From: a virus
IMG/VR virus record: IMGVR_UViG_3300048588_000091
Location: 1 to 36,783 of that record
DNA: 36,783 nucleotides
Reading direction: 5' to 3' (one strand)
Shown here in pieces: positions 15,153 to 36,055 of the stretch (the stretch's first letter is position 1; each line of letters starts with the position of its first letter). Under the pieces are notes generated by a model, which saw nothing but the letters and a program-made list of their open reading frames with translations, searched no databases and was not told where the DNA came from. Position numbers and translations under genes: made by a program.

Positions 15153-17893
15153 TGCCATCGGTCATCCAACGCGCCTTTAACGGGGGAGAGGTTTCCCCCA
15201 AGCTGGCACCCGCTCGGGTGGACCAGGCGCGGGTGGCCTACGGCGTGCGTGAGATGACCAACATGATTGCCGAGGTGGGTGGCGCGGTGCACAACCGATC
15301 CGGCACCCGGTATCGCGGGGCTACCGAATCCATGGCGCGTGTGATCCCGTTCATGACCGGCGATGATGGCAATTTCCTATTCGAAATGGGGGAGCATTCC
15401 ATCCGCATTTGGCAGGATGGGGAGCGGTTGACCTGGGTCGGCTCTGCCTGGGACGGCGGAACCACCTACAGCATGGGTGATGTGGTCACGGCAGGCGGCA
15501 ACTACTACGTGTCCATGCGTGATGGGAACGTGGCGAACGACCCCACGGCGGCTGCCTACCCATCGAATGGGTATCAGGCCAGCGCGTCAGCCTACTGGTT
15601 CCTGTCCTCGGCACAGGCGATCGATGACATCGCCGAGGCCATCCTGCCCACGGTTCCCCCTGCTGAGCCCGTGGAATGGGGCAGCATCGATCCCGATCTG
15701 TATCCCGACATCCGTTTCGATCAGTCGGACAATCTGATGGTGCTGACCCTGCCGGGCAAGACCCCGCGCAAGATCATACGCGACAAGGCCACGGGCTTCT
15801 GGTCGGTCACGCGCATGGCCTTTGTGCCGGAGATCGACGGACCCACGGGGGTGACGGCAACGGCGGGCGGTGCGGGCGCGAACAGCTACGGCTACCGGGT
15901 GACGGCGTTCAATCGGGAAACCCGCGAGGAATCCCTGGTCGGCACCATGGCAGCGGCTTCCGTGGTGGACATCACGAACTCCACGCCTTACCTGGTGCAG
16001 ACCACGGCAGCCCATGGGATGGCGACCGGCGACGAGGTGTCATTCACGGACTTGGTTGCCTTCGCCTTCTTGATGGAAGGCACATGGACCGTGACCGTGA
16101 CGGGTGCCAGCGCCTTCACCATCGACGGAACCGCTGGCCCTGGGTCCACCACCACACTGGTCGGCAACTACGTCAAGCACCAGGCCAGGATCAGCAGCGC
16201 GGCTGCGGCGACCCCAGCGGCACCCCATATGATCGGCTGGACGGCGGTCGACGGCGCAGATAGCTACGTGATCTATCGCACGGAGAACGGCGTCTATGGC
16301 TTCGTCGGCGTCGCCCGGGGCACGGCATTCAATGACATTGGCTACACCCCGGACACGGCCGATGGTCCCCCGTTGCTGTATCAGCCCTTTGGCATCGACG
16401 ATGACCAGGACGGCGAGTACCCCACGGCGGTAGCGTTCACGAATCAGCGGCTTGCGTTTGCGGCCACCGAGAGCGAGCCCCAGGGCATTTGGATGTCGCG
16501 CATCGGGCGGTTTGAGAACTTCACGGTGTCGAGTCCGATCAAGGATGATGACGCGGTCAATTTTCCCATCGCCAGCGGCCAAACCCGGCGCATCAATGCC
16601 CTGGTCGAGATCGGTCGTCTGTTGGCGCTGAGTGCCGCCGCCGAATGGGCGATCGACGGCGAGGGTGGAGGCGCGATCACGCCGAACACGGTCCGGGCAC
16701 GTCGGCAGACCTATGATGGCGCTGCCAATATCGCACCCCTTCCCGCTGGCGCGGCTGCCCTGTATGTCGGCGACCGATCCAATTCCATTCGGGAGATCAG
16801 CTACAGCGAACTCAACCAGGGCGAGCGATCCCGCGACCTGCTGACCTGGGCTGGCCATCTGCTGGAAGGCTACACCGTGGTGGAGTGGGCACACCAGCGT
16901 GTCCCCGATTCCATCGTCTGGGTGGCCCGTAGTGACGGGATCCTGCTGGGCATGACCTATCAACCCGACCAGGAGGTCGTGGCCTGGCATCGCCATGATG
17001 TCGGCGGTGCAGTGAGGTCCCTGTGTATCGTGCCCGAGGATGACCGCGATGTGCTCTATATGGTCGTGGAGCGCGAGATCAACGGAGGCACGGTCTACTA
17101 CATTGAGACCATGACCCCGCGCCGGACCGGGGTGAATGCTGCGTTCATGGATAGCTCCCTCAACTGGAACGGCAACAACACCACGGCCACCACGGTGACG
17201 CTGACGACGGCGGGCGGCTGGACGGTGGATGATACCTTGACCGCAACGGCCAGCGCGGCGTTCTTCAACTCAGGAATGGTCGGGCAGATGTTCCGGGCGA
17301 CGGTCGGCGGCGTCGAGGTCTGGCTGACGGTCACGGGCTACACCAGCACCACGGTCATTTCAGTGCAGCCGGAGTCAACGGTTCCTGTGTCGCATCGGGC
17401 CGTTGCCATCAACGACTTCGATGAGGCCAGGAACTATATCTACGCCGTCCACCTGGAGGGTGAGACGGTGGCGATTCTGGGCGATGGCTTCGTGATGTCT
17501 GAGGACGTGGTGACGGGTGGTGTGGTCCAGCTCGACACCCACGCCACCAACATCAGCGTTGGCCTGCCCTACGTCAGCCGATTGGAAACCCTGGATCTGG
17601 AGTTCCCGGACGGCGAGACCCTGCTGGATAAGGCGATGCGCGTGCATCGCGTTGGCCTGCTCTTCCATGAGACTCGGCGCGGTTGGGTTGGCCCAGATGC
17701 CGCCAATATGGTGGCGTGGACGCAGAAGTCTGGTGAAGATTGGGACGACACCATCAATACCTTCACGGGCTTGGCGGAAATTAACCTGCGTGGGCGATTC
17801 AATAAGCATGGCCGCGTGACCATTGAGCAGCGCGACCCGCTGCCGATGCGCATCACCGCACTCATTCGCGTCGGCGAAGTCGGGGGGAACTGA
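15152..17893 (+). CDS. Tail nozzle (T7 gp12-like tail tubular protein B)
   Basis: A 913-residue beta-rich protein. The start VIQRAFNGGEVSPKLAPARV and TNMIAEVGGAVHNRSGTRYR are strong markers of gp12-type nozzle proteins, which form the distal tail tube. About residues 230-420 contain fibronectin-type or Ig-like strands (YGYRVTAFNRETREES, ADSYVIYRTENGVYGFVGVA) inserted in the core. The region FTNQRLAFAATESEPQGIWM and the C-terminal VTIEQRDPLPMRITALIR are also family-like. It overlaps the neighbours on both sides by one base (TGATG), forming a tail translation unit with the adaptor and the first internal protein. Confidence 0.87.
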   Translation: MPSVIQRAFNGGEVSPKLAPARVDQARVAYGVREMTNMIAEVGGAVHNRSGTRYRGATESMARVIPFMTGDDGNFLFEMGEHSIRIWQDGERLTWVGSAWDGGTTYSMGDVVTAGGNYYVSMRDGNVANDPTAAAYPSNGYQASASAYWFLSSAQAIDDIAEAILPTVPPAEPVEWGSIDPDLYPDIRFDQSDNLMVLTLPGKTPRKIIRDKATGFWSVTRMAFVPEIDGPTGVTATAGGAGANSYGYRVTAFNRETREESLVGTMAAASVVDITNSTPYLVQTTAAHGMATGDEVSFTDLVAFAFLMEGTWTVTVTGASAFTIDGTAGPGSTTTLVGNYVKHQARISSAAAATPAAPHMIGWTAVDGADSYVIYRTENGVYGFVGVARGTAFNDIGYTPDTADGPPLLYQPFGIDDDQDGEYPTAVAFTNQRLAFAATESEPQGIWMSRIGRFENFTVSSPIKDDDAVNFPIASGQTRRINALVEIGRLLALSAAAEWAIDGEGGGAITPNTVRARRQTYDGAANIAPLPAGAAALYVGDRSNSIREISYSELNQGERSRDLLTWAGHLLEGYTVVEWAHQRVPDSIVWVARSDGILLGMTYQPDQEVVAWHRHDVGGAVRSLCIVPEDDRDVLYMVVEREINGGTVYYIETMTPRRTGVNAAFMDSSLNWNGNNTTATTVTLTTAGGWTVDDTLTATASAAFFNSGMVGQMFRATVGGVEVWLTVTGYTSTTVISVQPESTVPVSHRAVAINDFDEARNYIYAVHLEGETVAILGDGFVMSEDVVTGGVVQLDTHATNISVGLPYVSRLETLDLEFPDGETLLDKAMRVHRVGLLFHETRRGWVGPDAANMVAWTQKSGEDWDDTINTFTGLAEINLRGRFNKHGRVTIEQRDPLPMRITALIRVGEVGGN

Positions 17894-18351
17894 TGGGAGC
17901 TTCCGCAGCCGTAGGCGCATCTGCGCTGATGACCGCACAGAGCCAGTATGCCGCTGGTCGCAGCAATGACCGCATCGCCCGACTGAATGCCCAGCTGTCA
18001 GAGGACCAGGCGCTCACGGCTGAGCGTCGCGGGAAGATCCTGGCCCAGCGCCAGCGCACCGAGGTGCAGCAGGTCATTGGGGCGCAGCGGGCAGCTCTGG
18101 CTGCCAATGGCATCCGCGTGGACAGCGTGCTGGCGAGTCAGTTGGCCATGGACAGCGGGATGGCCGGGGAGCGCGACGCTCTGGAGATCGAGAACGCGGC
18201 GGCGTTGGAGGCCATGGGCTTCCGGACTCAGGGGATCAGCACCCGGCTGAGTGGCGAGCTGGCCCGCATCGAGGGCCGCAGCGATGCGATCAATACTGCC
18301 GTGCGCGGGGTGGCTGACACCTATGCCACCTACAAAGGCATCCGGAGATAA
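17893..18351 (+). CDS. Internal virion protein, T7 gp14-like
   Basis: A 152-residue protein. A small hydrophobic start (MGASAAVGASALMTAQSQYA) is followed by long helices with Gln/Arg/Ala (QRQRTEVQQVIGAQRAALAA) and the SVLASQLAMDSGMAGERD segment, the layout of gp14-type core proteins. These proteins are ejected first and form the outer-membrane part of the DNA channel in T7-like phages. It overlaps the nozzle stop by one base and is followed two bases later by the gp15-like gene. Confidence 0.75.
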   Translation: MGASAAVGASALMTAQSQYAAGRSNDRIARLNAQLSEDQALTAERRGKILAQRQRTEVQQVIGAQRAALAANGIRVDSVLASQLAMDSGMAGERDALEIENAAALEAMGFRTQGISTRLSGELARIEGRSDAINTAVRGVADTYATYKGIRR

Positions 18352-18353
18352 CC

Positions 18354-20108
18354 ATGCCGCGTGTCCCCACTTTGCAGGAGGGCGCTGCCCCGGCACAAGC
18401 ACCAGGTGCCCGGATCCAGGCCACCGTGCGACCGCTGGAAGCCACGGGCCTGCGTGCAGTTGGCCAGGTGATGAGTGAAGAGGCGCGGCACGCTGTCGTC
18501 CAGGTGCGACAGACCCAGCTTGAGGAACTGCGCACGGCTCGCCAGCGGCTGATGAATGAGTTGCAGGCGGATCCCCAGAACGGCTATCAGACCAAGCGCG
18601 GCAAGGATGCATTCAGTGTCCCCGGCAGCTACAGCGAGTCATGGAAGAAGGGATTGGATGACCTTGGCAAGACCATCAAGGACCCCGCTGTCCAGGACAT
18701 GTTCCGGTTGGAAAGTGAGCGGGATGGCGTCGCGTTCGAGCGCGGCATGTGGCAGCACGTCAGCCGGGAGCGGCAGGTCTATGATGATGAGGTGTTCCAG
18801 AATGGTCTGGCGACCGACCGGGAAACGGTGGCGCTGAACTACAACGATGAGCTGGGCGCAGTGCGTGCGATCGATGCGGCCATCGCTCGCGTGGACACCT
18901 ATGCCGAGCGCAACGGCAAGCCCCCCGAGTGGCGCGAAGCGCGGGTGAAGGACCTGCAATCCGCTGGCTATCGGTCGGTGATCGAGCGCCATCTGGATGA
19001 TCAGAATGCACCGGCTGCCAAGCAGTGGATGGAGCGCTATGGCCACGCCCTGACCGAGCAGGACCGGGCGGCGATGACCAAGGGGCTGGAGGCGACGGAG
19101 CGACGCGGGCAGGCGCAGGCGATCACGGATGAGCTGATGGACCGGGGCTTGAGCCAGGAGGCGGGTCTGTCGGAGATCCGGGAACGGTATCACAATGACC
19201 CCGACATGCGCGAGCAGGCAGAGGCCCGCTTCCTGCGCATGAGCACCCTCAAGGAACGGGCCGAGGCGGAAGAGGTCCAGAACCTGGGCCGGGATATCCA
19301 CTCTGCGCTGATCGACCCGCAGAATCCCCAGGGTCTGGACGCCATTCCGTCGTGGAAGCTGGAGTCCCTGCGCGAGCGTGACCCGGCGACCTATGACGCC
19401 TTGCGCAAGGCTGATGCCGCACGGTCACAGGGCCGACCCATCGAAACCGATCTGCCCACCTATCAGATGCTGGAGCTGTCTGCGGCAGATCCTGCCACCC
19501 GTGGCGACTTTCTGAATACGAACCTCTACCAGTTCGCTGACCGGCTGAGCCCTGCCGACTTCAAGCGCTTCATTGGCATCCAGGCCGATCTGATTCGGGA
19601 CGCCACCAATCCCGGCAGCGACTCGGCAACAGCCACGTTGCTGACGGGTATCCAGAGTAAGCGCGAGGTGGTGGATGAGGTGCTGGTCGGCGCGGGCATT
19701 GATCCCACGCTGTCCACCACCAATAAGGACCGGGAGAAGGTGTCCCAATTCCGGTCTGTGCTGGACCGCTATGTGGTGGCGGAACAACAGGCGACGGGCA
19801 AGGCCCTGCCCCCGCAACGCATCCGCGAAATCGCCGAAAGCCTGATGGTCAAGGTGACCATCGAGCAGCAGGCTGGGATTGTCTCCAATATCTGGAATCG
19901 TCGCAAGCCGTTGACCGGGAAGGAATCGGTCGAGGTATTCGCCTTCGAGTCGCCCGGGGTGTCTGGCCGGGCTTTCGCTGTCGATGATGTGCCCGAGGCA
20001 GATCGGCAGCAGATCGTGCAGGCCTTGAACCGGGCCGGTAAACCGGTCACGCCCACAGCCATCGTGTCCACCTACAACATCAAGCTGAGCCAAGCAGATG
20101 CCGACTGA
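18354..20108 (+). CDS. Internal virion protein, T7 gp15-like
   Basis: A 584-residue, almost all-helical protein with a Pro/Ala-rich N-terminus and no signal peptide. The internal stretch FADRLSPADFKRFIGIQADL and the later VSQFRSVLDRYVVAEQQATG are typical of gp15-type core proteins, which build the periplasmic part of the ejection channel with gp16. A ribosome binding site (CGGAGA) precedes the ATG. The end overlaps the giant gene by 11 bases, so the two are probably produced together. No enzyme motif was seen. Confidence 0.75.
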   Translation: MPRVPTLQEGAAPAQAPGARIQATVRPLEATGLRAVGQVMSEEARHAVVQVRQTQLEELRTARQRLMNELQADPQNGYQTKRGKDAFSVPGSYSESWKKGLDDLGKTIKDPAVQDMFRLESERDGVAFERGMWQHVSRERQVYDDEVFQNGLATDRETVALNYNDELGAVRAIDAAIARVDTYAERNGKPPEWREARVKDLQSAGYRSVIERHLDDQNAPAAKQWMERYGHALTEQDRAAMTKGLEATERRGQAQAITDELMDRGLSQEAGLSEIRERYHNDPDMREQAEARFLRMSTLKERAEAEEVQNLGRDIHSALIDPQNPQGLDAIPSWKLESLRERDPATYDALRKADAARSQGRPIETDLPTYQMLELSAADPATRGDFLNTNLYQFADRLSPADFKRFIGIQADLIRDATNPGSDSATATLLTGIQSKREVVDEVLVGAGIDPTLSTTNKDREKVSQFRSVLDRYVVAEQQATGKALPPQRIREIAESLMVKVTIEQQAGIVSNIWNRRKPLTGKESVEVFAFESPGVSGRAFAVDDVPEADRQQIVQALNRAGKPVTPTAIVSTYNIKLSQADAD

Positions 20109-23100
20109 TTACGATGCCATCATTGCCCAGGCTGATGATGCTCCGGCTCCTGTGCCGACTCCCGACGTTGCCAATCCCTATGATGACATCGTTCAGGGCG
20201 AGAATCCACTCTTCCGGGTGTCGACCAGTCGCGGCCTGATCCAGGACGCGGATCGGGCAGCCCGCATCCTTCGCGCCCAAGAGCGGACCCGCCTGCCCGC
20301 TGATCTACTGGACCGCAACCTGGACCTGGTCGAGCAGGAGATGCAGCGGGTGGACTTCCTGCCCGAGACGTTCCGCGACAGCCCGGTGGTGTCGCAGTGG
20401 CTGTCTGAGCAGGCCGAGCATACGGCTATCGCCAAGGATGACCTGCCCCGGCTGGCTGAGATGGAGGCCCTGGTCCGCTCAGATCCCCAGGTGCAATTCC
20501 TGCCAGATGGGCAGATCCTGGAACGGCGCGGCGCGGCTGGGTTCTATTTTGCCAATCAAGCCGAGTACCTGCGCGAATGGAGAAAGCGGCGGGATCGCCA
20601 AGGCCTGGACCTTGACGAGCGCGAGGAAGCCGTGCGCGAATTGTCGGGAGCCTTTGGCCCCCTGGCGAATGTCGCGGCTGGTGGCTTCCAGTCCCTGACC
20701 AGCACGCTGCGTGCGGTGCAGGTCGGGGCCGAAGACTCGACAAAGTTCGCCCCGGCTGACCGCGTGGCCCAGGCCAGCTTCGATATCAATCCTGGTCTGT
20801 GGGGCGACATCCAGCGCGGCGCGGGTGCGCTCCTGGCTGACGTTCCCCTGATGCTCACGGGTGCCCCTTTGGCCAAGGCCACCACCTCGGTGGCGAATCT
20901 GGCACGCATGCAGCGCGTGCTGACGCCGACCATGGCGCGGGTGGCCCAGGGTGCGGCTGGCGCTGCCGCCGCCGTTCAGCCCCTGGCCATCCGCGAGGGT
21001 ATCCTGACTGGCCAGGAACACGGCGTCTGGCATGGGCTGGCGGCATGGGGCATTGAGACCGGGGTGCCTGCGGCCTTCGGTCGGACCGGTATTGAGCGCG
21101 CCCTGATCGGCAATCTGGACGCCGCGGCGACCGACCGACTGCACACGGCGGCGGCATTCCTGATGCGCGAGATGGGCATGGAGGCCGCCGAAGAAGTTAC
21201 GACCGAGCTGGCCCACGCACTCTATGAGGTCGGCAGCGGCATCGATCCGACAGCGCTGGACGCCGAGAACTTACAGCGGCGTCTGATCGTTGCCGGTGTG
21301 CTGGGTGCCGGTGCCAGCGCGGCGTTCAATGCTCCCGAGGCCATTGGGCGGCTGGGGCAGGATGTGAACCGCATCGAGCAGGCCCGCGCGGGCAAGGCGA
21401 CGATTGAGCAACTGATGAGCCTGGCCAAGGATTCCACGACCCGCCAGCGCTACGCCCCCGGCTTCCAGGCCCTGCTGCAGAAGGCGACCGAGGCGGGCGG
21501 CGTCGGCACTGTGTTCTGGGACCTGGCGCAGTGGAACACCTTCTGGCAGGAGAAGGGCCAGGACCCTCGCGCCATGGCCGAGCAGGTCTTGGAAGATGGC
21601 GAGCTGTACGAGGAAGCCGTGGCCACGGGCGCGGCCCTGCCGATCAGCCTGGCCCGCTTCACCACCCAGATGGCCGACATTCCCGAGGCGGCTGGCCTGG
21701 CGGACTTGGCCCGCTTCGAGCCCGATGCCCTCAATGCCCAGGAAGGCGGATTCCTGATTGAGGACTTGACCAACCTGCCCCCCGAGGAAGCGGCGCGGTT
21801 GCAGGCTGAGGCACAGACAGCGGCAACGGCTGGGGCCGAGGCTGATCCCGTGGCGGCAATCCGTGCTGATGTGACGGAGCAGCTGGTTAATTCCGGGGTC
21901 GAGGCCAAGACCGCCGAGACCCAGGCGGCGCTCTGGGCCAATGCCTTCCAGTCCCTGGCTGAGCGATTCAACCGAGATGCGGCGACCCGTGGCGGGACCC
22001 CGGTGGATCCGGCGCAGTTGTTCGAGGCGTACCGGGTGCGAATCCAGCGCGTGCTGCCCGAGATGGCGGCAATGCAGCGCGGCAATGTGGATGTGGTGGA
22101 CACCCTGCTGGACCGCCTGCGCACGGGCCAGCTTCCGACCGAATCCGACATCATGGGCCGCAGCCTGCGCGACTTCCTGATTGAGTCCGGTGGCGTGGTC
22201 GATGAGGGCACCGAGCTGAGCACCATCGGGGTGGACGAACGCCGCCGACCCTTCCAGAAAAAGCTGATCAATGCCAATGGATTCCCGAGCCTGGACCGTG
22301 CTGCCCAGGCTGCGCATCAGGCCGGGTACATCGCTGAGGCAACGCCCAATGCCCTGCTGGAAGCCCTGAGCACTGAGGGCGGCGCGGCAACCTTCGTCGC
22401 TGGCGATGTAGCAGACCCCCAGGCTGAGCAGATCCGCAACGCTCTGTTGGAATTGCAGGATGAGCTGGGGCGCTTGGGCGTGGACTTGAACACGCAGGAC
22501 AATGTGGAGATCAAGCGGCTGTTGCAGGCTCCGCCGGTGGATGTGGGTGAGGAGGAATTGGCACAGGCAATGAGCAGGGAGCGTGCCATCGCCTATGTGG
22601 AATCCGATTCAGTCCCGCGCCAAGGCGAAATTGAGCGCATGCGGAAGGATTATGCCAGGGTAAAACAGAACTGGGTCAAGGCGGTCAGCGAGTCAGAGCA
22701 TAAAATAAATAAGTTAACCGAGGCAGCAATTGGCCTAAAAATCGCCTATGACGAGGCGGTGACTGCGGCTGGAAATATGGACATTGGGAAGGTTCGGGAC
22801 GATGCCTTCCGCAAGGCATTTGCAATAAATGATCAATATGATGACACTCGGATTGAACTTCGTAACGAGAAGGAGTTTTTAGAATCTGCTGCCATTCTTG
22901 CCAAAAGAAAATCACGGCCGCGACCGGGCCATATTTTCTTTCAATCACATCTGACCCCCGACATTTCCCACCTGAGCGACGAGGGCCGCGCCTACATCGA
23001 ATCCCTGCCCGAGGCCGACCGCGCCTTGCTGGCTGGCCCCATTGCGTACCTGCGCAACCACCCGGACCCGATGGGGGACCGGGGCAATCTAATGATGTCG

Positions 23101-26100
23101 CTGGATGCGGCGAAGGCGATGCGGGGGCGGCAGCCGGAGCTGGCGCAATCGGCTTACCACGGCAGCCCACACAAGTTCGACAAGTTTACCACGGATCACA
23201 TGGGCAGTGGTGAGGGTGCGCAGGCGTATGGGTGGGGCCTGTATTTCGCCGGTGAAAAGGCGGTGGCAAAGTATTATCAGGAAGTCCTTGCTCCGGATCC
23301 GGTGATACAGGACCTGAGCATCAGCGGCGTACCCGTGTACCGCCGTGGTGATCCAGTAGACTATTCACCCCGCACCAACGACAGCGCGGCCATCGCCAGG
23401 GCTGGCCTACAAGAGGCGTTACTCCTTGCCGAGCGCGAGATCGGCGCTGCCTACACGGCAAGCGGTGATGTGGGCGTGCGCGAAGTCATTCGCGGTGTCA
23501 TTGATCAGCACATCAAGGCGCAGGACCCTGAGAACGATGCTGGGACGCAGTGGCTCAAGCAGCAGGCATTGCTCGCCCAGAGTGATAGCGCGTTCCGCAT
23601 CAGGATTGACCACGACAAGGGACGCATCTACACGGTGGAGCTTCCCGAGGACGGTGAGTATCTGCTATGGGACAAGCCAATCACCCAGCAGCCACCCAAA
23701 GTGAAGGCGGCGCTCAAGGCAGCCGGGATTGACAAGGCTTACAAGGCCAACCTGTCTGATTTCGGCAGTCCCCAGAACACGCGCGGCTCCAGTAAACTCG
23801 GCTCTAGTGTCTACGAGTTCCTGTCATGGCAGCATGCCCTCAAGGCGAAGGCCGATGGGATTTCTGGCGAGGTCGGCCCCGAGGCAGCCAGCAAGCAGTT
23901 GCTCGCGCTGGGGATCAAAGGGATCAAGTACCTGGACGGCAACAGCCGCACGCAGGGCAAAGGCTCATTCAATTACGTCATCTTCGACGGCGCAGACGTT
24001 GCGATTCGCGAGTATGAGCAGCGCGACGATGATGCCAAGCGCGGCGGCCTGCGCATCGGCGCTGACCGGCAGATGTCCATCGTGCTCTACCGCGATGCGG
24101 ATCTCAGCACCTTCCTTCACGAATCGGGCCATTTCTTCCTGGAAGTCCTGGGCGACCTCGCGGCCCGTCCCGATGCCCCTGCCGACATCGCCGCCGACAT
24201 GGCGACCGCCTTGGAATGGATGGGCTGGACGGGCACCCTGGCCGAGTGGAACGCTGCCGACATCGAGGCACGCCGCCCCCATCACGAGACCTGGGCCCGT
24301 GGCTTTGAGGCCTACCTGATGGAAGGCAAGGCCCCGACCCAGGCCCTGCGTGGGGCCTTCGCACGCTTCAAGGCGTGGCTGGTCAGCATCTATCGCGACA
24401 TGAAGGCCCTGGCCGTCGAGCTGACGCCGGAAGTCCGGGGCGTGTTCGATCGCCTGCTGGCCAGTGAGGCCGAGATCCGTGCCGCCCAGGATCGCCAGGG
24501 CGTGGCCCCCCTGCCGCGTCTGGCCTTCGATTCCGACGAGGACTTTGCGGCCTACCAGGAATCCCTGGCGGCATCGACCGAGCGGGCCGAGACGGAGCTG
24601 CGTGTGCAGCTGATGGCCGAGGAACGCCGTGGGCGCACCCAGGCTTGGCGCGACGTGCGGCGCACAGTGCGGGCCACCATCCAAGAGCAGATCGATCAGC
24701 GACCGGAATACGTCGCCATTGCGGCGTTGCAGAATGGCACCCTGCCCGATGGCCGGACCCTGCCTGATGACCTGCGAGGCTTGAAGCTGAACAAGGCCGA
24801 GATCGTCAACACCTTCGGCGAGCAGGCCCTGACCCAATTGCCGGGCCGCAAGCCTGCTGGCGCGGATGCGCGGGCGAATCCCCGCAACCGGGGGAACAAT
24901 ATCTATGGCGACGAGGGCGGACTGTCCCTGCAAGCGGCTGCGGACCTGTTCGGCTTCCGCGATGCGGCGGCGATCTGGGAGGCCCTGGTCAATGCCCCCG
25001 ACCGGCGGCAGTTGATCGAGGCGGAGACCGATCTGGCGATGCGCGAGCGCTTCCCGGATCCGATGACCGATGGATCGATCGAGCAGCGGGCGACCGAGGC
25101 GGTGCACGGGGATCACCGTGGCGACCTGCTGGTGCGCGAGATGCGTGCCCTGTCGGTGCGGGTCGGACAGACTCCGGCCCCACGTGAGGCCCTGCGCAAT
25201 GCGGCCCGGCAGGCCGTGGGCCGGGCCAAGGTCGCACGGCTGCGCCCCCATCGCTTTGAGGCAGCGGAGCGGGCGGCAGCGCAGAAGGCCCAGGAGGCGG
25301 CAGCCCAGGGCCGGTGGGCGGATGCCCTGGTGGCCAAGCAGCGCGAACTGCTGAATCATGAGATGTACCGGGCGAGCCTGGCGGCCAAGCAGGAGGCGGA
25401 AGTGGCCTTCCGCATGTTCCGCCGACTGAGCCAGAAACCGTCCCGTGAGCGCATCGGCAAGGCCGGCGGCTGGGCCTGGACCGTGACCGGGCCAGATGGC
25501 TCAACGACCGAGGTCGACAGCGAGGATGCTGCCCGCGAGGCGGCGGGGCGTGTGCCCGGTTCCACCTGGGAACGGACATCGAGCTATCTGGACCAGATCG
25601 ACGGCATCCTGGCGCAGTACGAAATTACCAAGGTGTCGGCGAAGGCCCTGGCGCGGCGTGAATCCCTGGCGGCGTGGCTGGCCAGCGTGGATCCCAGCGG
25701 CGATGCCACGGCGGTGCCTGATGAGGTGCTGGGCCGGACTCAGACGAAGAACTGGCGGCAGCTGACGGTCGACGAGTTGCGCGGGGTGCGTGATGCCTTG
25801 GCCAACATCGAGGCCCTGGCGCGGCACAAGAACCAGTTGCTGGCAGCGGCCCGGCAACGTGACTTCACTGAGGCGCGGGACGCGGCGGTGGCCAACCTGG
25901 AAGCCAACGTCCGCAAGCTGCGTCCTGAGCGGATCGCAGCAGAGCGGACTGTGGTCGACCAGGCCGGGGATGCCTTTGGCCGATTCATCGCGGCCCATCG
26001 CAAGGTGTCGTTTATCGCCCGCGAGGCCGACGGCGGCGCGGATGGCGGGGCGTTCTGGGAGGCCATTGTCCGACCGATGAACGAGGCCCAGGACCGTGAG

Positions 26101-27891
26101 GTCACCATGCGCGCCGACTCGGCGCAGGCATTCGCGGCACTGACCAAGGCGTGGCAGGCATCGGGCGCGAATTCCAAGGCCAGGGTCCACATCCCCAGCC
26201 TGGGCACCACGCTGAACCTGGAGACCAGGATCATGGTGGCGCTGAATTGGGGTAACCAGGGCAACCGGGATGCGATCCTGTTGGGTCAGGGCCAGCAAGC
26301 CTGGAACCAGCAGAACGTGGACGAGATCCTGGCGACCCTGACCGATGCAGACTGGAACTATGTCGAAGGCATTTGGCGGTGGGTCGATTCCTTTTGGGCA
26401 GAGATCGCGGCCAAGGAGCAGCGCGTCACCGGCATCGCCCCCGAGAAGGTGCCGGCGGATCCCTTCCGCGTGGGTGATCGCGTGGTGCGCGGTGGGTATT
26501 TCCCCATCCACTACGACCCGGCACTGAGCGCATCGGCGGAAGTCCGGCAGGCGATGGAGGCGGCGAACCGGTACCAATCGGGCGCGGCGATGCGCAAGAC
26601 CACGGCACGCGGCCACACCAAGCAGCGCACCCAGCGGCTTGGCCCGCTGATGCTGTCGCTGGATGTCATCCCCCGCCACGTGACCCAGGTCATTCATGAC
26701 CTGACGCACCACGAGGCGATTATCGACGTGAACAAGTTTCTGGCGGATCCGACCTGGACCACGGCGGTGCGCGAACGACTGGGCCGCAATGCCCACATGC
26801 AGATGTCGAGCTGGGCCGGGGACTTGGCCCGTCCGGCACTGAATGAGGACGGCATTGGCAAGTTCATCCGCATGCTCCGCAACGGTGTCAGCGTGTCGGT
26901 CATGGGCTTTAACGTGGGCACGGCGCTGGTCCAGGTGACCGGTATCGGGCAGTCGATGCAGCGGACTGGCGTGGCGGCATTCGGGCGAGCCTTCGCCCAG
27001 ATGGTCCACGATCCCGACCGGGGTGAATCGGCCTTTGCCTTCGTCAAGGGCAAGTCGGAATTCATGGCGGCACGCGACACCACGCGCATCCGGGACCTGA
27101 ATGAGGCGGTCAATCAGATCCAGGGCACCGGCTGGCATGCCAAGTTGACCACGGCGGCCTATTGGATGATGACCAAGACCCAGACCATGATCGACACCCC
27201 GACCTGGCTGGCGGCCTATGAGACGGCGCTGACCCAGGGCAAGGATGATGCCAGCGCGGTGGCCATCGCTGACCAGGTGGTGCGCGACACCCAGGGCAGC
27301 GGCATGACCGTGGACCAGTCGAACGTGCAGCGTGGCGCGGTGTCGCAGCTTTTCACCGTGTTCTACAGCTACGCGGCCAGCACCTTCAATGCCTCACTCA
27401 ACAGCGTGGCGCAGGCCCGCAACGCCGGATTCACGGCGGCCAGCATGGGCAAGCTGATGCAGGACTTCGTTCTGCTCTACAGCGTGCCAGCGGCCATGTA
27501 TCTGGCGATCAAGTACGCCATGGCGGCGGCGGTCGGTGGCGAGGATGAACTGAAGGACCGTGACTTCCTGAGCGATCTGGCCATGGAACATGTCAGCATG
27601 GGCATGAACAACCTGGTGCTGGTGCGCGAGCTATCGGGCACCGTGACCAATGGCTTCGGCTACCGTGGTCCGGCTGGGACCAGGGCTCTGGAATCCATCA
27701 GCCGGGTTATTCAGCAGGCCCAGCAGGGCGAATTGGATCGCGGCCTGGGCCGTGCGGGGTTGGATGCGGCTGGTGTGTTCTTCCGGCTGCCGGTTCGGCC
27801 CCTGACGCAGATCCTCGATGGCTGGAATTACGCCCAGGAACAAGGTGTAAACCCGGTACTTCCGCTACTACTTGGTAAGCCACGGCAGTAG
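20098..27891 (+). CDS. Giant polyvalent internal virion protein with ART-like and metallopeptidase-like domains
   Basis: A 2597-residue protein taking the position of T7 gp16, much larger than T7's (about 1300). Regions in order: N-terminal acidic linkers with DYDAIIAQ and NPYDDIV (4-32); hydrophobic helices (about 245-340); a long helical part; an AT-rich coded helical insert (about 845-950); and an ADP-ribosyltransferase-like domain (about 1018-1305). That domain has YHGSPHKFDKF, GEGAQAYGWGLYFA and a final KYLDGNSRTQGKGSFNYVIF. A zincin-like domain follows, with HESGH at 1341-1345 and likely glutamate ligand E1404 in ARGFEAYL. Long helices then run to a hydrophobic C-terminal part (about 2262-2285 and 2456-2480). 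Such multi-domain proteins are injected with DNA and may modify host proteins. No lytic transglycosylase motif was seen. Confidence 0.82.
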   Translation: MPTDYDAIIAQADDAPAPVPTPDVANPYDDIVQGENPLFRVSTSRGLIQDADRAARILRAQERTRLPADLLDRNLDLVEQEMQRVDFLPETFRDSPVVSQWLSEQAEHTAIAKDDLPRLAEMEALVRSDPQVQFLPDGQILERRGAAGFYFANQAEYLREWRKRRDRQGLDLDEREEAVRELSGAFGPLANVAAGGFQSLTSTLRAVQVGAEDSTKFAPADRVAQASFDINPGLWGDIQRGAGALLADVPLMLTGAPLAKATTSVANLARMQRVLTPTMARVAQGAAGAAAAVQPLAIREGILTGQEHGVWHGLAAWGIETGVPAAFGRTGIERALIGNLDAAATDRLHTAAAFLMREMGMEAAEEVTTELAHALYEVGSGIDPTALDAENLQRRLIVAGVLGAGASAAFNAPEAIGRLGQDVNRIEQARAGKATIEQLMSLAKDSTTRQRYAPGFQALLQKATEAGGVGTVFWDLAQWNTFWQEKGQDPRAMAEQVLEDGELYEEAVATGAALPISLARFTTQMADIPEAAGLADLARFEPDALNAQEGGFLIEDLTNLPPEEAARLQAEAQTAATAGAEADPVAAIRADVTEQLVNSGVEAKTAETQAALWANAFQSLAERFNRDAATRGGTPVDPAQLFEAYRVRIQRVLPEMAAMQRGNVDVVDTLLDRLRTGQLPTESDIMGRSLRDFLIESGGVVDEGTELSTIGVDERRRPFQKKLINANGFPSLDRAAQAAHQAGYIAEATPNALLEALSTEGGAATFVAGDVADPQAEQIRNALLELQDELGRLGVDLNTQDNVEIKRLLQAPPVDVGEEELAQAMSRERAIAYVESDSVPRQGEIERMRKDYARVKQNWVKAVSESEHKINKLTEAAIGLKIAYDEAVTAAGNMDIGKVRDDAFRKAFAINDQYDDTRIELRNEKEFLESAAILAKRKSRPRPGHIFFQSHLTPDISHLSDEGRAYIESLPEADRALLAGPIAYLRNHPDPMGDRGNLMMSLDAAKAMRGRQPELAQSAYHGSPHKFDKFTTDHMGSGEGAQAYGWGLYFAGEKAVAKYYQEVLAPDPVIQDLSISGVPVYRRGDPVDYSPRTNDSAAIARAGLQEALLLAEREIGAAYTASGDVGVREVIRGVIDQHIKAQDPENDAGTQWLKQQALLAQSDSAFRIRIDHDKGRIYTVELPEDGEYLLWDKPITQQPPKVKAALKAAGIDKAYKANLSDFGSPQNTRGSSKLGSSVYEFLSWQHALKAKADGISGEVGPEAASKQLLALGIKGIKYLDGNSRTQGKGSFNYVIFDGADVAIREYEQRDDDAKRGGLRIGADRQMSIVLYRDADLSTFLHESGHFFLEVLGDLAARPDAPADIAADMATALEWMGWTGTLAEWNAADIEARRPHHETWARGFEAYLMEGKAPTQALRGAFARFKAWLVSIYRDMKALAVELTPEVRGVFDRLLASEAEIRAAQDRQGVAPLPRLAFDSDEDFAAYQESLAASTERAETELRVQLMAEERRGRTQAWRDVRRTVRATIQEQIDQRPEYVAIAALQNGTLPDGRTLPDDLRGLKLNKAEIVNTFGEQALTQLPGRKPAGADARANPRNRGNNIYGDEGGLSLQAAADLFGFRDAAAIWEALVNAPDRRQLIEAETDLAMRERFPDPMTDGSIEQRATEAVHGDHRGDLLVREMRALSVRVGQTPAPREALRNAARQAVGRAKVARLRPHRFEAAERAAAQKAQEAAAQGRWADALVAKQRELLNHEMYRASLAAKQEAEVAFRMFRRLSQKPSRERIGKAGGWAWTVTGPDGSTTEVDSEDAAREAAGRVPGSTWERTSSYLDQIDGILAQYEITKVSAKALARRESLAAWLASVDPSGDATAVPDEVLGRTQTKNWRQLTVDELRGVRDALANIEALARHKNQLLAAARQRDFTEARDAAVANLEANVRKLRPERIAAERTVVDQAGDAFGRFIAAHRKVSFIAREADGGADGGAFWEAIVRPMNEAQDREVTMRADSAQAFAALTKAWQASGANSKARVHIPSLGTTLNLETRIMVALNWGNQGNRDAILLGQGQQAWNQQNVDEILATLTDADWNYVEGIWRWVDSFWAEIAAKEQRVTGIAPEKVPADPFRVGDRVVRGGYFPIHYDPALSASAEVRQAMEAANRYQSGAAMRKTTARGHTKQRTQRLGPLMLSLDVIPRHVTQVIHDLTHHEAIIDVNKFLADPTWTTAVRERLGRNAHMQMSSWAGDLARPALNEDGIGKFIRMLRNGVSVSVMGFNVGTALVQVTGIGQSMQRTGVAAFGRAFAQMVHDPDRGESAFAFVKGKSEFMAARDTTRIRDLNEAVNQIQGTGWHAKLTTAAYWMMTKTQTMIDTPTWLAAYETALTQGKDDASAVAIADQVVRDTQGSGMTVDQSNVQRGAVSQLFTVFYSYAASTFNASLNSVAQARNAGFTAASMGKLMQDFVLLYSVPAAMYLAIKYAMAAAVGGEDELKDRDFLSDLAMEHVSMGMNNLVLVRELSGTVTNGFGYRGPAGTRALESISRVIQQAQQGELDRGLGRAGLDAAGVFFRLPVRPLTQILDGWNYAQEQGVNPVLPLLLGKPRQ

Positions 27892-33388: not shown

Positions 33389-33897
33389 CTGGTCACCTTC
33401 ACCTGATTCCAAAAATACGGGGTCAGCGCCAGGGCCCTGGCCCGCTCAATCGTCAGCGGCTTCCCATTCATCAGCCCAGGGATCGGCCAGCGCAGGACGG
33501 CAGCGCCACCATCCCAGCACCAGACCACTAGGGATAAGCCACCGGCAGCGACGTAGCGATCGAGGGCGCGGATCTGGTGGTCCTGGCCACTGCCGCGATC
33601 CGTCTTCCGGAAGTCGGCCAAGGACAACGTGGCGTCACCCCTGGTGCCATCGGGGCGCAGGGGTCCGGTGGTTTTTTTAACCTCCACGCGGACCCCGGTG
33701 CCATACCCAGGGATCAGAGCGTAGATGTCCCCGCTGACCTTCTTGGCGTAGAGGGTCTTGCCCCGGATCACACGGGTGGGGGTGGCGATCTCTTCGACCT
33801 CGACCAGGCCGAGGTGGCGCAGGAGGGTCGCGGCGACCAGTTGGCCGGCGCGGCCACGGCGTTGGTTCTGGCGACCACGGAGAGAGGCGGTGGTCAT
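33385..33897 (-). CDS. PD-(D/E)XK-type nuclease, resolvase-like
   Basis: A 170-residue protein. The motif GDIYALIPGYGTGVRVEVKK carries D57, E72 and K74, which match the D...ExK core of PD-(D/E)XK nucleases. An N-terminal helix (RGRAGQLVAATLLRHLG) precedes it, and basic residues are frequent. The size and early-operon place fit a Holliday-junction-resolvase or replication nuclease of phages. ATG 33897 overlaps the previous stop (ATGA); the frame open to 33957 adds 20 unlikely residues. Confidence 0.68.
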   Translation of the reverse strand: MTTASLRGRQNQRRGRAGQLVAATLLRHLGLVEVEEIATPTRVIRGKTLYAKKVSGDIYALIPGYGTGVRVEVKKTTGPLRPDGTRGDATLSLADFRKTDRGSGQDHQIRALDRYVAAGGLSLVVWCWDGGAAVLRWPIPGLMNGKPLTIERARALALTPYFWNQVKVTR

Positions 33898-35399
33898 GCT
33901 GCCACCGCCTTGCGCGGCAAGTTCGCCGCCACGATGGCAGCCGCGACCGGTGGACACACGCTGTTGCCGATCCTGGCGATCTGCTGCGACTTGGTCCCGG
34001 TCAGGATGTAGTCATCCGGAAACCCCTGGGCGCGGGCGAGTTCGCGCGGGCTGAGCATCCGCATGCCGATATCGACCAGGGCGTAATCGGTGCCGTCGAT
34101 GGTGACGGTCACTAGGCCATGCCTGGCACGGGTCACGATGGTCGCCATGGGTTCTGTCAGTGCCTGATCCTGGGAGCCCTGGCTGTAATATTGGACCAGG
34201 AAGGCGGCGACGACAGCGAAGCGTTCAGTGGTCAGCACCGTGGACACCGGCACATCTAAGGCCTGATCGCCACCACCGTGCCGAGCACCGATCTGAATCA
34301 GGCTCCCCGATATCACAGCCTTGGTGTCGGTGCTGGTGATCGTGTGTAGTGGTTCGCTGAGCGGCTGCCCGGTCGCGCCGCCGTTGTGCTTGGCGAGAAA
34401 GGCAGCGACCAGCGCATGATGATTGCCCTGGGCCGTGACCGTAGTCAGCGGTTCGTTGGCGCTATTCCATTGCTTGTCACCATGGCCCATGCGAACGACG
34501 ACGGGCGACACCAGCGCCTGTTCGCCGCGGTGAGCCGTGGTGATCGTCGCCATCGGCTCATCGAGGGACCTGCCCCGGAAATGGTCGGTGCCGTGCGTGA
34601 TCGGCATGATGAACGGCTTGCCCTGGAGCACGTACCGGGCGATGCCGCGAGCGATGCGGCGGCACGTCGCCGGCGCGAGGGGTTTCTTGCGCTCAAATAT
34701 CGACGGGCATGGGATCGACCAATCGATGCACCCGGCCGCCGTGCGCCACGGCTCTGGCTTCCCGAGTTTGGTGTGTGATGGCTCTGGCCAGGTAATCGCT
34801 TCGCCGTCGCAGCGTGCGACCAGGAACAGACGCTTGCGGGTGGTCGGTGCGCCCTGGTCGGCACAGATGATCGTCCGCCACTCGACGGTGTAACCGTACT
34901 TCTTCCATTCCCGAATGAAGGCGCGGAAGTGTTCGCCGGCGCGGGCCTTGATGGGTTTGTTGTCGCGGTCGAGCGGGCCAGCCGTGACGAACTCGGGGAC
35001 GTTTTCCAACACGACGATGCGCGGCTTGGTGAACTTCGCCCAGCGCAGGCCGATCCAGCACAGAGCGCGCAGGCTAGCCGAGACTGGCGCAGCTCCACGC
35101 GCGCGGCTGAAGTGACGGCAGTCTGGGGAAAGCCACAGCAGGCCCACGCGCTGGTCGCCCACGAGAACAGTCGGGTGGACCTCGCGGTGGAAGACGCTCT
35201 GGCAGTAATGCCGGGTCGCCGGGTGGTTCTGCTCGTGCATCTGGATCGCGTGCGGGTCGTGGTTGATCGCGATGTCTGGTGGTCGGCCAGTGGCCATCTC
35301 GATGCCGTGCGATGCGCCGCCGCCGCCGGCGAAGAGGTCAACGATCAGTTCACCGACGAGGATACCGCCGATGCCGGGGATGCAGGTTTGGCGGATCAT
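33894..35399 (-). CDS. C5 cytosine DNA methyltransferase with repeated target domain
   Basis: A 501-residue enzyme that would methylate cytosine at C5 in a specific sequence, probably to protect phage DNA from restriction. Motif I is FAGGGG (23-28). The catalytic motif is SPDCRHFS with C94, a variant of the usual PPC. ENV (132-134) and TTRKRLFL (186-193) follow, and the C-terminal motifs are ARAQGFP and IGNSVCPP. Residues about 278-432 hold five repeats of about 34 residues, each with (D/E)(E/V)P-x-x-T(V/I). ATG 35399 overlaps the previous stop (ATGA); the frame further upstream is the previous gene's shadow. No restriction enzyme was seen. Confidence 0.85.
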   Translation of the reverse strand: MIRQTCIPGIGGILVGELIVDLFAGGGGASHGIEMATGRPPDIAINHDPHAIQMHEQNHPATRHYCQSVFHREVHPTVLVGDQRVGLLWLSPDCRHFSRARGAAPVSASLRALCWIGLRWAKFTKPRIVVLENVPEFVTAGPLDRDNKPIKARAGEHFRAFIREWKKYGYTVEWRTIICADQGAPTTRKRLFLVARCDGEAITWPEPSHTKLGKPEPWRTAAGCIDWSIPCPSIFERKKPLAPATCRRIARGIARYVLQGKPFIMPITHGTDHFRGRSLDEPMATITTAHRGEQALVSPVVVRMGHGDKQWNSANEPLTTVTAQGNHHALVAAFLAKHNGGATGQPLSEPLHTITSTDTKAVISGSLIQIGARHGGGDQALDVPVSTVLTTERFAVVAAFLVQYYSQGSQDQALTEPMATIVTRARHGLVTVTIDGTDYALVDIGMRMLSPRELARAQGFPDDYILTGTKSQQIARIGNSVCPPVAAAIVAANLPRKAVAA

Positions 35400-36055
35400 G
35401 CCTTCCCCTTCCGGTGCTGATCCGCACACGGACACGATGTGAAATGGGACGTGCCATCCAGATTGACCGGCATCCGCTTCCCCGATTGCGTCACAATCCA
35501 CCGAATACCATCGCGACACGATGAGCACGTGGCCATGGGAGTGCCGGGGGGAATCAGGAAGACCTGCGGCGCACGCTGCGGCAGGGCCATGCCGTGCTTG
35601 TCGCAGACCTCTTGGGCGTGGTGCTCGCACAGGAAGCGATGGACCAGGGTTTCCGGCGTGCCGGTGGCTGACACCAGCAGGGCGGTGCCGAGGTGCGTAG
35701 CGGGTTTGCCACATGCGACATCCTGGCCGTGCTTGCAAGTGCGGTCAGCATCGGGCAGTCGGTAGATGGTGCGCTTCCAGGTGCCCTGCGGTTTCGGCGC
35801 GACCATCCACACCGTGGCGGCTCGGCCACTGGATCCCTTGCGCGTGAACTTGGCGTCCACGACCAGGCCGCGCTCCACCAGCTTGATGCGCCGAGGACGG
35901 TAGGTGTTGCCTTCCATCTCCAGCAATTCCTGGCCCTCTTCGTCGGTCAGCCCATCGGGGCAGCGACGGAGGATGTCCAGGACCTCGGCTTCCAGGCGCG
36001 GAAGATCCGGGGTGATGGCGGTGAGGGCATCGCGGCTGGTGGTGGAGGCGGTCAT
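35396..36055 (-). CDS. Winged-helix and zinc-binding-like protein
   Basis: A 219-residue protein. Residues about 20-85 have the pattern of a winged helix (LTDEEGQELLEMEGN, YRPRRIKLVERGLV). Cysteine and histidine clusters follow: C107, H109, C115; C143, H145, H146, C151; and a C-terminal C177-x-x-C180 with H204, C208 and C210. The last resembles a zinc ribbon (MATCSSCRDGIRW, HFTSCPC). The function is unknown; it may bind DNA in early infection. ATG 36055 overlaps the upstream stop (ATGA). Confidence 0.65.
   Translation of the reverse strand: MTASTTSRDALTAITPDLPRLEAEVLDILRRCPDGLTDEEGQELLEMEGNTYRPRRIKLVERGLVVDAKFTRKGSSGRAATVWMVAPKPQGTWKRTIYRLPDADRTCKHGQDVACGKPATHLGTALLVSATGTPETLVHRFLCEHHAQEVCDKHGMALPQRAPQVFLIPPGTPMATCSSCRDGIRWIVTQSGKRMPVNLDGTSHFTSCPCADQHRKGKA

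Follow-up and report, generated by a model that had tools for sequence, protein, structure and literature searches.

A giant putative ejection protein of a short-tailed phage carries ART-like and zincin-like domains on a constant chassis with a variable cargo slot

The window, the whole stretch of DNA analyzed here, is a complete virus record of 36,783 bases (IMGVR_UViG_3300048588_000091), and all features described below lie on its plus strand unless stated otherwise. Genes for the small and large terminase subunits, the portal (Pfam head-tail connector match, 3.8e-152) and the major head protein are followed by tail tubular genes, a gp14-like gene, a gp15-like gene, and a giant gene. The internal virion protein in the gp14-like position (17893..18351) matches PHROG_418 (E=2.6e-24) and is syntenic with bbp12 of phage BPP-1, and the gp15-like ejection protein (18354..20108, 584 aa) matches PHROG_10475 (5e-47). 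A gp14-, gp15-, gp16-like order after the tail tubular genes is present in the window; it matches bbp12-bbp11-bbp10 of BPP-1 and likewise the order in Carin1, vir555, and Pseudomonas AF. The gp15-like protein lacks the SLT (lysozyme) transglycosylase domain that is found in its 700- to 730-aa counterparts in BPP-1 (bbp11), Pseudomonas AF, Xanthomonas CP2, and Cobetia Carin1, and none of the window proteins scanned was recognized as a substitute hydrolase. Elsewhere, on the minus strand, 33894-35738 encodes a 614-aa DNA cytosine methyltransferase-like protein whose profile matches fall in two separate stretches (approximately residues 132-345 and 545-608), the gap between them possibly being an insertion.

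The giant gene (20098..27891) is a single uninterrupted frame of 2597 codons. An earlier note had read this frame as a virion protein combining an ADP-ribosyltransferase (ART)-like and a zincin-like domain, and we found the frame intact and every motif that it named in place: YHGSPHKFDKF at residues 1020-1030, GLYFA at 1047-1051, HESGH at 1341-1345, and E1404. The intact frame, a PHROG_9880 profile match of 1166 bits, and homology to BPP-1 Bbp10 (35.6% identity over residues 1326-2575) mark the product as a probable giant ejection (internal virion) protein. A whole-protein search recovered other relatives in phages of Caulobacter, Xanthomonas, Pseudomonas, Vibrio, Cobetia, and others. The bacterial-genome relatives of its zincin lie mostly on proteobacterial contigs, many of them from Burkholderiales and Stenotrophomonas, and are presumably prophages. 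At 1.97 times the length of T7 gp16 (1318 aa), the protein is indeed about twice as long as that protein, as had been claimed. NCBIfam and PADLOC scans gave no match to it, and a sequence search of the PDB returned no relatives of the whole protein, of an ART-zincin profile, or of the C-terminal core, while a PDB search with the ART profile returned ubiquitin variants only, at chance level. The domain scan of the giant protein matched neither an SLT or N-terminal transglycosylase nor an RNA polymerase domain, and the literature searched yielded nothing on this protein or its close relatives from virion proteomics, cleavage studies, or enzyme assays.

The zincin-like metallopeptidase domain (residues 1310-1480, 24025..24537) is found with 48 to 61% identity in the best 80 viral loci. 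Its predicted active site consists of the HESGH motif (24118..24132) and E1404 (24307..24309), the predicted third zinc ligand. An HEXXH motif is present in all 160 relatives scored (profile score >60), as HESGH in 127, HETGH in 14, HELGH in 9, and other variants in 10. The aligned zincins, 81 in all, show no variation at H1341, E1342, H1345, or E1404, a count that is partly circular since the search patterns for these loci included FLHESGHF; HEXXH also appears in BPP-1, Cobetia Carin1, Vibrio 1.021.A (HEFSH), and vir555 (HEIGH), all recovered by the whole-protein search without a motif pattern. As in zincins, HEXXH is followed here by a conserved glutamate on a later helix, so that the reading of HESGH plus E1404 as a zincin is supported at the level of motifs; at the level of fold, the 496-residue model matches lethal factor weakly (Z 3.7). 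Bbp10 was described in 2013 as carrying a zincin of the CLCA_X family (PMC3650047). The HExxHxxxD signature of that family is not matched here, as E1349 stands at the fourth position after H1345 (E in 75 of 81) and is followed by D1353 (77 of 81), and the relation to CLCA_X rests on homology to Bbp10, a CLCA_X seed. Just ahead of the active site, a conserved pair, R1315-G1316 (24040..24045), marks the boundary between cargo and zincin (R in 79 and K in 2, G in 81, of 81), and an R/K-G pair lies no more than 45 residues before HEXXH in 152 of the 160 relatives.

Invariance of the two zinc histidines, of the general-base glutamate, and of E1404 favors catalysis over a structural role alone, and this counts against the somewhat unlikely alternative that the zincin is either structural or acts only in head assembly, by maturing the protein to fit the core or to be threaded, with no release of cargo in the host. 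Catalysis during assembly would be compatible with the same invariance, and the alternative gains from P1 DdrB, which is cut before packaging (PMC5512222), and from family members that have a zincin after a short region with no recognized cargo, such as L034, with HEXXH at 609.

The earlier note had also proposed structure prediction of the ART-zincin region, and an AlphaFold2 model of residues 985-1480 (mean pLDDT 81.9, 103-row alignment) indeed contains a predicted ART-like fold. We assign residues 1010-1305 (23125..24012) to a long ART-like domain, an assignment supported by conservation in 72 aligned copies, the model, and structural comparison. By structural realignment of candidates proposed by Foldseek, whose own E-values against the PDB were all above 0.3 and not significant for both the ART-zincin and the C-terminal core models, the best match to residues 1012-1312 is 9k3a_B, a protein of the cyanophage A4 pre-ejectosome (168 aligned, Z 10.8, rmsd 5.5). 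The catalytic domains of diphtheria toxin (Z 7.3) and tankyrase (Z 6.8) come next, and then the NatT toxin (Z 5.6). The A4 protein likewise has an ART-like fold inside a podovirus internal ejection protein and differs in that no sequence similarity to the giant protein was detected. In the model, H1021 (codon at 23158) lies in strand 34-39 and Y1049 (23242) in strand 64-67, the first two strands, in agreement with the H-Y-D clade of ARTs defined previously (PMC5512222).

The N-terminal part of the domain is homologous to Pfam ART-PolyVal, with a match over residues 1020-1061 (E=7.7e-4) that covers 36 of 140 profile positions, the first strands only, and scores 20.7 bits against a gathering score of 31.2. 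Nine of 10 relatives tested were likewise below this cutoff or without a match, and a helical stretch (model residues ~112-176) makes the long ART exceed the 140-position Pfam model. Searching with the ART sequence of the window protein by itself gave no matches; a query built from an alignment was required, and a profile from eight relatives placed the long-ART domain in at least 583 viral contigs.

Conservation among the 72 copies is high for H1021 (71), E1039 (72), Y1049 (72), R1284 (69), and N1292 (69, codon at 23971), and Y1060 is also nearly invariant. The predicted fold and the first two catalytic residues of the claimed ART stand, while the canonical third residue, a D in strand 5 in the Tox-ART-HYD2/ART-PolyVal group, is not clearly in place: the expected acid was not evident in the alignments tried, the acidic candidates being D1280 (65 of 72, codon at 23935) and D1297 (55 of 72, codon at 23986), and it is N1292 that is nearly invariant. 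Alignment with the short ART-PolyVal was read from printed rows only, as the iterated profile mixed both kinds and set the last-strand columns out of register. The domain appears to be a long variant without a clear canonical third catalytic residue, and ADP-ribosylation by it is putative. The missing acid is what would be expected if the domain were catalytically dead or used NAD+ differently, as a binding or sensing module, but we consider this improbable because H1021, Y1049, Y1060, R1284, and N1292 are nearly invariant and the full HYYDRN set is present in 61 of 72 copies, suggesting a retained active site, and because phiGT1 keeps a separate gene copy among its head genes.

Long ARTs of approximately 280 to 510 aa occur as separate genes in several loci (L127, L139, L143, L154, and others, and L222 4918-6081, which is phiGT1 gp5). 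The phiGT1 gene sits between the portal and scaffold genes, and its product may be packaged on its own. A giant gene with a long ART is also found on the Pseudomonas aeruginosa plasmid p382 (L221 1-11727; record 67300-82302, ~5000 aa, annotated as LPD23 domain-containing), and in vir555, whose host is given as Methanomicrobiales, a long ART directly precedes the zincin and C-terminal core (L085 4573-10497).

Downstream of the zincin, the C-terminal core (residues 1481-2597, 24538..27888) is of near-fixed length in the family and is predicted to be nearly all helix (AlphaFold2, pLDDT 83.8, 40 sequences). A hydrophobic segment at residues 2453-2471 (27454..27510) is a possible membrane helix by Kyte-Doolittle analysis of both the protein and the family average. 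Structural comparison matched the core to the PhiM1 ejectosome (8vb2_A, Z 5.7, 213 aligned) and to T7 (9jyy_I, Z 5.5, 224 aligned), scores in a range that the comparison tool calls common for helical proteins. These are by far the two longest alignments in the candidate list, and both fall on model residues 486-768. We take 9jyy_I to be T7 gp16 from its length (1223) and numbering. The part of the core that resembles T7 core protein residues 516-859 by fold spans residues 1966-2248 (25993..26841). When profiles were compared, 18 gp16 sequences of T7 type matched residues 2079-2204 with E 0.0039, the same region as the fold match, and a profile of 95 family members aligned to gp16 in two collinear pieces (E 0.0035 and 0.0071; other pairings, 0.25 to 0.33). 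The proposal that the protein is the gp16 equivalent accordingly agrees well with gene position and weakly with fold and profile, and the two weak lines together with gene order support a protein of predicted gp16 type. T7 gp16 and the PhiM1 ejection protein share with the giant protein its gene position, a large helical C-terminal part, and the weak ~220-residue fold match. T7 gp16 differs in its own N-terminal transglycosylase, absent from the giant protein, and in the marginal sequence similarity; no zincin or ART is described for T7 gp16, and the transglycosylase is a T7-like trait, absent from P22-like gp16 too (PMC8954989).

The domain contents of the relatives reveal a constant chassis, formed by an N-terminal core with an LPD22 domain, the zincin, and a helical C-terminal core of ~1240 aa, with a variable slot just upstream of the zincin. 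In the window protein the N-terminal core has no recognized enzyme domain (residues 1-820, 20098..22557, boundary approximate) and carries LPD22 (PF18834, E=1.6e-9) at residues 49-129 (20242..20484). We divided the family into a first part (the first 440 residues, or 821 in the window protein), a middle part up to the zincin, and a post-zincin part. LPD22 marks the first part in 44 of 45 members, again with no recognized enzyme, and the post-zincin part of 40 members yielded one LPD3 and one marginal HetE-N match and no enzyme. Enzymes, RNase-like domains and acetyltransferases among them, are found in the middle part, in which Pfam recognized, among 59 members, ART-PolyVal (16), GNAT (up to 9), PBECR1/3/5 (7 in all), LPD3 (5), GGDEF (2), zeta toxin (2), and a single InPase, RadC, and ParB-like nuclease. 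GGDEF stands between ART and zincin in L036 and L067, and GNAT precedes ART in L044. The length statistics, which include a few broken or cut frames, agree with this division: the length after HEXXH is nearly constant (median 1239, quartiles 1219 to 1279, 5-95% range 873 to 1367, n=136), while that before it is variable (median 935, SD 393, 5-95% range 629 to 1845, n=141). Cargo is essentially never found after the zincin. The one exception seen in the family is L096 2712-9494, whose long ART lies downstream of HEXXH and is apparently inserted in the later zincin part. The C-terminal core had 97 matches among predicted viral proteins at E <0.001, including ones named nuclease, restriction enzyme, kinase, acetyltransferase, and ART, and such differently named cargo fits a chassis common to many polyvalent proteins.

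The slot of the window protein (residues 825-1305, 22570..24012) also stands out by its foreign codon composition: its GC3 is 0.688, while the remainder of the gene has 0.806 (p 4e-8), and no value under 0.778 was seen in 1154 equal-length windows outside it. Within the slot, residues 841-960 (22618..22977) reach a GC3 of 0.43 to 0.58 in a gene of ~0.8 and had no homologue in phages or the fetched relatives. A slot GC3 dip of the same sign is present in 46 of 50 nonredundant relatives with a long slot (binomial 4e-10), and the N-terminal core is also slightly deviant. These dips fit repeated import of cargo; relaxed selection on variable parts could contribute, and low GC3 could arise in fast-evolving segments without transfer. 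Divergence of ART and zincin in 24 fused proteins is moderately correlated (Mantel r 0.35, p 0.0005), which establishes neither strict coinheritance of the two domains nor free swapping.

The earlier note had suggested that the order of ART and then protease allows self-release of an effector by cleavage. Self-release by a zincin is prior art, as the presence of ART and zincin domains in injected polyvalent phage proteins, with zincin self-processing, was proposed in 2017 (PMC5512222). HEXXH is kept in every relative scored, including short ones with little or no recognizable cargo, so that release of an ART cannot be the zincin's only job, and the domain order is better described as a family-wide slot rule than as a dedicated ART-release device. 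Retention of HEXXH whatever the cargo would also be expected if the zincin were an effector in its own right, injected to cut proteins of the host, with ART and zincin acting independently on one delivery scaffold; host-directed proteolysis is listed as an option in the 2017 study, which also names N4 vRNAP and the plasmid protein ArdC as counterexamples to processing that are transferred unprocessed (PMC5512222). This alternative is quite unlikely in our judgment, as conservation is much higher in the zincin than in the cargo and the zincin is tied in position to the C-terminal core, unlike an exchangeable effector, and as cargo lies upstream of it in all but the exception noted above.

The giant protein adds a member to a class that is already known, the polyvalent proteins, of which zincins are the commonest domain in phages (Iyer et al. 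2017, PMC5512222). It shares with them a gene among late virion genes, at least two unrelated enzymatic domains in one chain (here predicted to be ART-like and zincin-like), and LPD22, and coinjection with DNA was proposed for them together with zincin self-processing. T4 Alt serves in that study as the model for an injected ART and P1 DdrB as the processed protein, while gp16, BPP-1, and Bordetella are not mentioned in its text; the differences here are an ART that is long and below the Pfam cutoff and a constant chassis laid out with one cargo slot. Bbp10 of BPP-1 (Lenart et al. 2013, PMC3650047) is alike in zincin, C-terminal core, and gene order and differs in having HEXXH at 797 and no long ART, the window protein being ~545 residues longer upstream. 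The layout also recalls N4 vRNAP (gp50), which has a cargo enzyme, an HEXXH domain, and then some 1240 to 1310 residues to its end (1272 in N4, L223; 1240 in RPP1, L224; 1307 in LIT1, L225; family median here, 1239) and reportedly enters the particle without being processed (PMC5512222). The similarity is marginal for the zincin (E 0.004) and nil for the C-terminal profile (E 0.26); we rejected homology of the C-terminal core to that of N4 vRNAP and treat the likeness as analogy only, either convergent or of ancient common origin.

Our results lead us to favor, by a little more than an even chance, an explanation of the whole in which this protein, encoded at the gp16 position of a short-tailed phage of BPP-1 type, is an ejection protein composed of chassis and cargo. 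By analogy with T7, N4, and P1, it would be packed into the head alongside the gp14- and gp15-like proteins and threaded through the tail as infection starts, and its C-terminal core may help carry DNA across the cell envelope. The exchangeable slot before the zincin would bring an enzyme into the host, where the ART-like cargo might modify some host target during the first minutes of infection, putatively by ADP-ribosylation. The zincin, as a constant part of the chassis, would most likely act on its own protein near the cargo/zincin boundary, in the particle or after entry, and so may free or rearrange whatever occupies the slot. A more far-reaching version, which we find doubtful, is that of a general phage delivery chassis in which a gp16-like C-terminal core is joined to a zincin that cuts near R1315-G1316 and frees any slotted enzyme, with a long-ART clade that has a noncanonical active site.

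Four points are fresh in this analysis: a constant chassis with one cargo slot, the foreign composition of that slot, a likely link to gp16, and a widespread long-ART clade whose active site is unclear; for the first three we found no statement in the literature, of which our coverage was incomplete. The long-ART clade, with more than 580 viral contigs and without a clear canonical active site, deserves biochemistry. If the chassis reading is true, it would account for the delivery of many different enzymes by short-tailed phages, despite their small genomes, as soon as infection begins; it would link polyvalent proteins to gp16 ejection proteins, and it would provide a natural swappable slot for protein delivery that is testable in a laboratory phage.
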